Part shown: positions 32,381 through 34,778 of the stretch, in pieces
Layout of the letters: every line of letters begins with the position of its first letter
How positions within the stretch are numbered: the stretch's first letter is position 1
DNA from: Paracoccus sp. (in: a-proteobacteria)
GTDB lineage: Bacteria > Pseudomonadota > Alphaproteobacteria > Rhodobacterales > Rhodobacteraceae
Reading direction: 5' to 3'
Assembly (NCBI RefSeq): GCF_030536915.1
Contig: NZ_JAUNPC010000023.1
Coordinates: forward strand, 3,697-40,110
DNA: 36,414 nt
Position numbers and translations under genes: made by a program
The notes under the pieces: model-generated
Database searches by the model: none
What the model was told of the DNA's origin: nothing
Seen by the model: only the letters and a program-made list of their open reading frames with translations

Positions 32381-33403
32381 TCACGCGCCGGTGTCCTCGT
32401 CCTCCTCGACGATCAGGAACAGCTCTCCGGCCTGTTCCATCCGCCGGATCGCGGCGACGACGGCGCTCATCGCCTCGTCGGCGTCGCGGGTCGTGACCTT
32501 GCCCTCGCCTTCCATCTCCTCCCGCATGCTGTCGGCCAGCCGGGTGCTGAGGCCGGACAGCAGGAACTCCACCGTTGCGGCATTCTCGCCGGTGGCGCCG
32601 GCGAGGGCCTTGGCGATGGTGGCGGCATCGACCTCGCGGATGACGCGGGGAATGTCGCGGGGGTCGATGCGGCGGGGGATGGTGGCCCAGGTGAAGATGG
32701 TCCTGCGGACGCGGCCCGCGAAATCGGCGTCGTCCTGGTCCAGTCCCGCCAGCACCGCGTCCCGCGTCGGCGCAGGCGCGAAGTTGAGGATCGCGCCGAC
32801 CTTTTCGACCGGCAGCCCCTCGATTGCGGGCCGGGGCAGGGCGTCCACGGCGCGCATCAGCGCAAGCCCGATCCGCCGCAGCGCGGGCGCCTCGATCCCG
32901 GCGGTCAGCGACATCGCATAGGCGATCTGGCGGGCAAGCGCGGGGTCGAGCAGCCCGAAGACCTCGGACGCGCGGGCGATGGGCAGGCGGGTGAACATCA
33001 CCGCCGCGACCTCGACGGCCTCGGTCCGCGCGAGTTCCGCAAGCTGCGCGGGCGGCAGCACCGCGATCCGGTCCCAAGGGTCGGCCGAGCCGTTCAGCGC
33101 CGCGATCCGCCGCAGCCGGCTGTTGGTGTCGGCCGACAGATGCGCGCCGATGATATCGAGCGTGCCGTCGATGGACCCGGGGAAGGTCACGCCCACCGCT
33201 TCCAACTGGTCGCAGAACTCGGCGATCACCCGGTCGCAGGTGTCGCGGTCGACAAGCTCCATCCCCGCCATTTCCTGCGCCAGCGCCGCCTGCAACTCGG
33301 GGGGCAAGCGGGACAGGTCGAGATCCGCCCCGTCCGCGAGCATCACCCGGACCACCACCGCCGCCTTCTGCCGGGGCGAAAGCCCCGGCACTGCCCTCAG
33401 CAT
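32381..33403 (-). CDS. fliG: divergent flagellar motor switch protein FliG
   Basis: FliG forms the rotor ring that meets the stator and sets torque and direction. The 340-residue protein has three FliG-like parts; the C-terminal one is clearest (IPRRIDPRDIPRVIREVDAATIAKALAG at 242-269, FLLSGLSTRLADSMREEMEGEGKVTTRDADEA at 280-311, and RRMEQAGEL). The middle domain lacks the EHPQ motif used to bind FliM and reads EAVE at 128-131. The last residues are acidic. No other flagellar gene is nearby. A perfect CtrA-type box lies 48-62 bases upstream of the ATG, and a GC hairpin covers codons 6-11. It may be the single FliG of a divergent motor, or a paralogue. Confidence 0.82.
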   Translation of the reverse strand: MLRAVPGLSPRQKAAVVVRVMLADGADLDLSRLPPELQAALAQEMAGMELVDRDTCDRVIAEFCDQLEAVGVTFPGSIDGTLDIIGAHLSADTNSRLRRIAALNGSADPWDRIAVLPPAQLAELARTEAVEVAAVMFTRLPIARASEVFGLLDPALARQIAYAMSLTAGIEAPALRRIGLALMRAVDALPRPAIEGLPVEKVGAILNFAPAPTRDAVLAGLDQDDADFAGRVRRTIFTWATIPRRIDPRDIPRVIREVDAATIAKALAGATGENAATVEFLLSGLSTRLADSMREEMEGEGKVTTRDADEAMSAVVAAIRRMEQAGELFLIVEEDEDTGA

Positions 33404-33450
33404 GTCCGCCCCCGTGAATCAGACCTCGGGGGCAGTCTCGCAGACGGGCC

Positions 33451-33465
33451 TTAACCTCAGGTTAA
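33451..33465. promoter_or_regulatory. perfect CtrA-type box upstream of fliG
   Basis: TTAACCTCAGGTTAA has TTAA at each end with exactly seven bases between, the full CtrA consensus TTAA-N7-TTAA, and it is also a perfect palindrome around one base. TTAACC agrees with the first six bases of the half-site TTAACCAT. It begins five bases beyond the purB stop and ends 48 bases before the fliG start. Confidence 0.78.
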
Positions 33466-33470
33466 CGGCT

Positions 33471-34778
<1,308 letters not shown>

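Follow-up and report, generated by a model that had tools for sequence, protein, structure and literature searches.

The purB-fliG locus

The window, i.e. the whole stretch of 36,414 nucleotides analysed here (Paracoccus sp., contig NZ_JAUNPC010000023.1, positions 3,697 to 40,110), carries fliG (32381..33403, minus strand) and, upstream and co-directional with it, the adenylosuccinate lyase gene purB (33471..34778, minus strand; TIGR00928, 513.6 bits, cut-off 326.2). fliG encodes a divergent flagellar motor switch protein of 340 amino acids, in which FliG_N, FliG_M and FliG_C score over the Pfam cut-offs. The draft assembly of the source genome comprises 3.16 Mb in 228 contigs and is 86% complete. 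In this draft fliG is present in a single copy on contig C227, apart from FlhA, fliF, fliL, fliP and flhB, which are all on contig C212; the description of fliG as solitary, given in a sequence-only reading of the window, is therefore correct as far as the draft shows.

The gap between the two genes, as derived from the sequence and the list of open reading frames, is 67 bases (33404-33470). It contains an exact TTAA-N7-TTAA motif, TTAACCTGAGGTTAA as read on the fliG strand (33451..33465, minus strand), which ends 47 bases before the fliG ATG. The sequence-only reading had reported this exact CtrA box between purB and fliG, and we find it there, both distances having been given one base too long (68 and 48). 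A pattern scan showed it to be the sole exact match within the window. An extended -10 element (33434..33442, minus strand; TGC followed by the hexamer GAGACT, consensus TGnCAnnnT) lies 8 nt after the box. It was recognised through conservation alone; a scan with the sigma-70 consensus gave no match. From the geometry relative to this -10 we infer that the box overlaps the -35 region of a fliG promoter, with a predicted transcription start approximately 7 nt after the -10 (33425..33429, minus strand).

FliG annotation. No other FliG was found in the genome, yet the window protein scores 112.6 bits against the NCBIfam fliG model TIGR00207 (cut-off 226.7), only half of what is required, and annotation by this model alone would miss it. 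The 15 named relatives identified with FliG all belong to Paracoccus. Among 125 Paracoccus genomes fliG was found in 122 and FlhA in 121, and several (e.g. G060, G064, G050 and G066) match the FlhA family a second time, which may reflect a further flagellar or type III system.

Conservation of the fliG promoter

The fliG upstream regions were read in all 122 fliG-bearing Paracoccus genomes. purB is upstream of fliG on the same strand in all 122 loci, and the gap is at most 140 nt in 121 of these. The exact box is present in only two genomes, the source genome and one sister, while 26 have one mismatch, 92 have two and two have three; in shuffled upstream regions the corresponding numbers for zero to three mismatches were 0.1, 2.4, 25.8 and 75.4 of 122. 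The conserved form in the genus is instead nTAAC-N6-TTAR followed, after 8 nt, by the extended -10 TGnCAnnnTG. The strict pattern (AA-N7-TT, spacer and TGnnAnnnT) was detected in 99 of the 122 upstream regions, compared to 0.12 of 122 after shuffling. Looking for the box in the purB-fliG gap of relatives, as had been proposed, hence gives a divided answer: the exact sequence is rarely kept, the degenerate equivalent in the same position is. Specifically, the -10 hexamer has A at its second and T at its sixth position in 116 of 122 genomes (near-invariant columns, A 0.96 and T 0.97), the TG is present in 107, the middle bases of the box vary, and in 45 genomes the last base of the purB stop codon falls within the left half-site. 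That the exact pattern occurs in so few genomes would suit a chance match, and this reading is contradicted by the positional conservation of the box together with the -10; we consider its probability practically negligible.

For other Rhodobacteraceae genera 88 loci were fetched and 85 processed (L179, L196 and L227 were left out). The promoter score was loosened after some rows had been seen, to accept G beside C after the left half-site and C beside G after the -10, and the shuffled and reverse-complement controls use the same loosened score. A score of at least 12 was reached by 21 of the 85 loci, versus none of the shuffled and none of the reverse-complemented sequences, and at a score of at least 11 the numbers were 38, one and six, respectively. 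The right half of the box often reads TTAACC in these genera. Judged by these scores, the promoter is recognisable in a large minority of the other Rhodobacteraceae loci, not in all.

CtrA-type sites and CtrA signalling genes in the source genome

In 100 dinucleotide shuffles of the window TTAA-N7-TTAA gave no match; this zero overstates the rarity of the box, and the fairer control is the pattern read backwards across the whole genome. On this scale there are 11 exact sites in 3.16 Mb versus two for the reversed pattern, so the box is enriched in the genome and less rare than the sequence-only reading held, in which one match in several million bases was expected. We scanned the neighbours of nine of the other ten exact sites, the tenth being the one on contig C40. 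Open reading frames beside eight of them encode a CckA-like kinase, DprA, RadC, a holin-associated N-acetylmuramidase, an RTX protein, a Hint-domain protein, a glycosyltransferase and a PAS protein, and one further site adjoins a Sde182-like gene. Near-exact sites are located before ctrA, between fliF and fliL, and in the recA region. The last of these is 143 nt before the longest recA open reading frame and 19 nt from a divergent methyltransferase frame, and is for that reason not leaned on here.

The set of genes near boxes resembles the CtrA regulon of Rhodobacterales. For Dinoroseobacter shibae, ctrA, cckA and flagellar genes are among the predicted CtrA targets (PMC6473078, PMC4046655), and LexA, not CtrA, is the predicted regulator of dprA and recA (PMC6473078). 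A matrix built from the Paracoccus fliG promoters (without L112, L130 and L135) scored 35.1 at the window site, 18.3 at the muramidase, 18.0 at dprA, 16.0 near recA and 11.7 at radC. With this matrix the fliF and fliL promoters are not above background (-1.1 and -2.0; shuffled windows reach 9.1), and the cckA box is absent from the top hits of the full matrix.

The genome encodes CtrA (410 bits, cut-off 350), a ChpT-type protein (HPTransfase over its cut-off) and a CckA-like hybrid kinase, the gene for which sits behind its own exact box and which has CckA models as its best NCBIfam matches, below their cut-offs; genes of all three kinds are thus present. The box could also be read as a palindrome, TTAACC-N3-GGTTAA, and hence as the operator of another regulator, in keeping with the local symmetry and with the CTAACC...TTAG seen in many relatives. 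The middle bases vary, though, and similar sites near ctrA, the CckA-like kinase and dprA and between fliF and fliL constitute a CtrA-type regulon, which makes such an operator very improbable.

We conclude from these comparisons that the conserved element is a genuine fliG promoter, very probably CtrA's, and a CtrA-dependent promoter owned by fliG, taken by itself, appears to us highly probable. The CtrA input to a solitary fliG, as proposed in the sequence-only reading, is in this respect well supported by conservation in place and by the ctrA, ChpT-type and CckA-like genes, with the amendment that the exact box is not the conserved form. This part was mostly to be expected, because a solitary fliG and the dependence of fliG on CtrA are already published for relatives. 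fliG lies outside the flagellar cluster of Phaeobacter inhibens, where it is yet required for motility (PMC12363192), and away from the main cluster in D. shibae (PMC6473078, PMC4046655). Flagellar genes are down in a D. shibae ctrA mutant (PMC6473078, PMC4046655), and fliG expression is lower in a ctrA mutant of Ruegeria sp. KLH11 (PMC3692519). No high-similarity CtrA site was found by the KLH11 authors upstream of its motility genes, fliG included (PMC3692519), and five D. shibae flagellar genes are predicted to have a CtrA motif, its two separately located ones not being among them (PMC4046655). The solitary fliG of P. inhibens and D. shibae resembles ours in its location, and no fliG promoter or leader architecture is described in the available text of PMC12363192, PMC6473078 and PMC4046655.

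Compared to CtrA-activated flagellar promoters of Caulobacter and of the Rhodobacter sphaeroides fla2 system, as presented in PMC6180460, the Paracoccus element is alike in having a TTAA-N7-TTAA type site near -35 (exact in the window, degenerate at the equivalent place in relatives, and on sequence grounds suitably spaced from the -10), a flagellar target and CckA-ChpT-CtrA genes. It is unlike them in that a single gene outside the flagellar cluster is concerned, and in that the -10 and start region is complementary to the Shine-Dalgarno (SD) sequence.

An inverted repeat covers the fliG Shine-Dalgarno

An inverted repeat extends from the -10 to the ATG; its sequence differs between clades while the pairing is kept (for example GCCCCCGA with TCGGGGGC and CCAGATTGG with CCAATCTGG, among others). 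In the window, folding gives a 5' arm CTGCCCCCG (33427..33435, minus strand), which shares bases with the end of the -10 and with the predicted start site, and a 3' arm CGGGGGCGG (33406..33414, minus strand), which covers the fliG SD. The read-through RNA of the window has a z of -4.8, to which a hairpin inside fliG contributes in part, and its 42-base core a z of -3.0. Rfam returned only a meaningless sub-threshold hit.

Folding was compared with dinucleotide shuffles for 118 of the 122 Paracoccus leaders; L112, L130 and L135 were dropped since the box was not confidently placed, and L151 since no start was found. Significance at p≤0.05 was reached by 71 of 118 (53 at p≤0.01), and after dereplication by 12 of 30 (10 at 0.01), leaving 47 of 118 and 18 of 30 leaders not significant at 0.05. 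As a control we used 77 open reading frame starts of the same genome (longest-frame starts of at least 200 codons, i.e. putative genes), of which four were significant at 0.05 and none at 0.01. For the other genera, where 81 of the 85 loci had a usable start, 22 leaders were significant at 0.05, 15 at 0.01, and 59 were not significant at 0.05.

A net stem of at least 6 was detected in 81 of the 118 Paracoccus leaders. The median distance from the end of its 3' arm to the start codon is 3 nt, and in 67 of the 81 the 5' arm starts no later than the final -10 base. The SD has a predicted accessibility of 0.16 in the read-through RNA and 0.50 in the promoter-started RNA, being higher in the latter for 107 of 118 leaders, compared to 0.36 versus 0.38 after a like truncation of the 77 control starts. 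For the short RNA of the window itself the value is 0.46, i.e. the SD is half free and part of it pairs.

Moreover, interior stem mismatches in Paracoccus are G-U in 53 cases, A-C in 10 and other in 38 (18, 6 and 21 after dereplication), and in the other genera 12, 5 and 28, respectively. That G-U mismatches outnumber A-C ones speaks for selection on the sense RNA; the deficit of A-C could come from the SD and -10 constraints alone. Covariation was analysed in 12 sequences of one clade and hairpin type, picked by eye. In this set 78.3% of cells are paired, a value as high as which was seen in 2 of 500 shuffles, and 8 of 500 matched the number of double-change cells and 10 of 500 the covariation; two other measures were not above shuffles (308 and 99 of 500 as high). 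Registers slid against each other pair at most 52.4% of cells, and in two of them there are as many pairs with double change as in the actual register.

When arms were exchanged among species, native pairs had better folding than permuted pairs, and so had a control with reversed 3' arms (both 0 of 5000 permutations); because the control also scored, the swap is not used as evidence.

A separate 9-pair GC-rich hairpin, TGCCGGGGC-TTTC-GCCCCGGCA, lies in the first fliG codons (33369-33390). It is strong in the window and not general in the genus (mean z -0.35).

Possible read-through from purB

The sequence-only reading assumed that purB stays constitutive while fliG has its own CtrA input; the latter is well supported, and the former misses possible read-through. 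No terminator-like site was found between purB and fliG in the window (33300-33600), including any GC-rich stem with a T-run behind purB, so read-through into fliG is possible. In the genus, 5 of 118 leaders are terminator-like by the T-run rule. Locus L075 has a sulfotransferase-like gene (named by eye) on the same strand between purB and the box, and here the promoter stays with fliG and the hairpin is lost (z 0.5).

Whether the hairpin belongs to purB rather than to fliG was tested with fliG-less genomes, in 21 of which purB was sought, giving 16 loci that were read. Neither box nor hairpin is present by purB in G108. In G105, which yielded neither fliG nor FlhA, the box, -10 and hairpin on the purB side persist before an apparent fliG deletion scar (L282:2808-2880), an apparent fossil of the deleted fliG. 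Inspection by eye of fliG-less genera revealed purB followed by a hairpin with a T-run in L283, L285 and L290, and by a hairpin with few T in L286.

These data bear on the reading that fliG has the CtrA promoter and nothing more, the inverted repeat being a protector of the purB 3' end, a weak purB terminator or a by-product of a C-rich start and a G-rich SD. The purB hairpins with a T-run in those three loci and the leaders that lack a hairpin speak for it. Against it are the scarcity of T-run terminators in the genus and their absence from the window stretch, the position of the 3' arm on the fliG SD, the like arrangement behind ccmE (see below), and the lack of any folding excess at control starts. 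On balance we consider this reading unlikely.

A putative translational gate at fliG

The fliG leader looks built to silence purB read-through. In the mechanism that we propose, the box would act as an activator site, where CtrA binds over the -35 region ahead of the 8-nt spacer, the extended -10 and a start some 7 nt on, and the DNA of the -10 and start region would have a second task as the complement of the fliG SD region. RNA reading through from purB would carry both arms, fold and hide the ribosome site, while RNA started at the CtrA promoter would contain little or none of the 5' arm and hence be translatable. FliG would then be made mainly while CtrA is active, despite purB being expressed all the time and despite the lack of a detected terminator. 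The hairpin is expected only in purB read-through RNA because most of the 5' arm is promoter DNA that should be absent from fliG's own mRNA. Given the promoter, we put the chances of such a gate on the ribosome-binding site at about even, and those of CtrA promoter and read-through gate together at just under even.

The position of the arms also admits a CtrA promoter at which transcription begins at or ahead of the hairpin; the stem-loop in the fliG mRNA would then be a 5' stabiliser or a regulated mask of the ribosome-binding site, for which FlbT-like regulation would be an example. The fliG start is a predicted one, and the 3' arm lies so near the start codon that it would act in any RNA with both arms; set against this, the -10 is near-invariant, and most stems have a 5' arm that starts in it or ahead of it, a part that this promoter should not transcribe. 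We regard this alternative as rather improbable.

The proposed gate at fliG has a precedent in phage T4, where the leaders of gene e, soc, 49 and I-TevI form the comparison set (PMC3014915). In T4 gene e the DNA that encodes the 5' strand of the hairpin contains the late promoters, and lysozyme synthesis is reduced 100-fold by the structure (PMC3014915). As in gene e, the long RNA is predicted to hide the fliG ribosome-binding site and the promoter-started RNA to leave it free, and, given the inferred start, the fliG promoter likewise falls within DNA encoding the 5' strand of the hairpin. The fliG case differs in being chromosomal, in having the promoter of a cell-cycle regulator and a housekeeping gene as the source of read-through, and in being known from sequence alone. 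What appears to be new is the predicted pairing of the -10 and start region with the fliG SD. Among the matches listed in a literature search, no titles or opening lines of abstracts mention a CtrA promoter with such a hairpin.

Leaders of other genes with CtrA-type boxes

Ten leaders of the source genome were folded. Significance was not reached by those of fliF, cckA, RTX and recA, ctrA (p 0.057) and fliL (p 0.067) were borderline, and fliG (0.010), the muramidase (0.030), Hint (0.007) and dprA (0.050) were at or below 0.05. The dprA gene lies behind a TldD/PmbA-family gene with a conserved box of the type CTAACC-N5-TTAACC (L003:1501-1560, L251-L280), and its leaders have a CCCTGC...GCAGGG hairpin in some species. 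Since its start codon is uncertain, the dprA result (11 of 30 leaders at p≤0.05) is kept as a hint only.

The gene for the holin-associated N-acetylmuramidase (L155:14582-15193, minus strand; exact box at L155:15237-15251) is located directly behind a CcmE-domain gene (ccmE), and its leader carries an inverted repeat predicted to hide the SD, as do other Paracoccus loci that were read. Of 124 genomes with a match, 30 loci were read. TTAA-N7-TTAA is exact in 29 of these, the hairpin is significant (p≤0.05) in 14 of 30 leaders and in 4 of 14 after dereplication, and predicted accessibility of the SD in the promoter-started RNA is up in 29 of 30 (mean 0.15 to 0.53). An open co-directional frame ends within approximately 90 nt before the box in all ten loci checked of the 30.

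We tentatively suggest, as a possibility that we would still sooner doubt than assert, that bacterial chromosomes use transcript-origin gates of the T4 lysozyme kind at CtrA-driven genes behind housekeeping genes, such that only CtrA-started RNA makes protein; this would take in fliG behind purB, a lysis muramidase behind ccmE and perhaps dprA behind the TldD-family gene. In gene-dense chromosomes a tightly regulated gene behind a constitutive one must stay silent when there is no terminator between them. If the suggestion is true, promoter DNA doubling as half of an RNA switch would be a compact solution, one that recurs in a regulon for motility and probably cell lysis and predicts which operon-like neighbours are no true operons. 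Finally, the muramidase is probably the counterpart of rcc00555, the lysozyme of the Rhodobacter GTA (PMC3423380).
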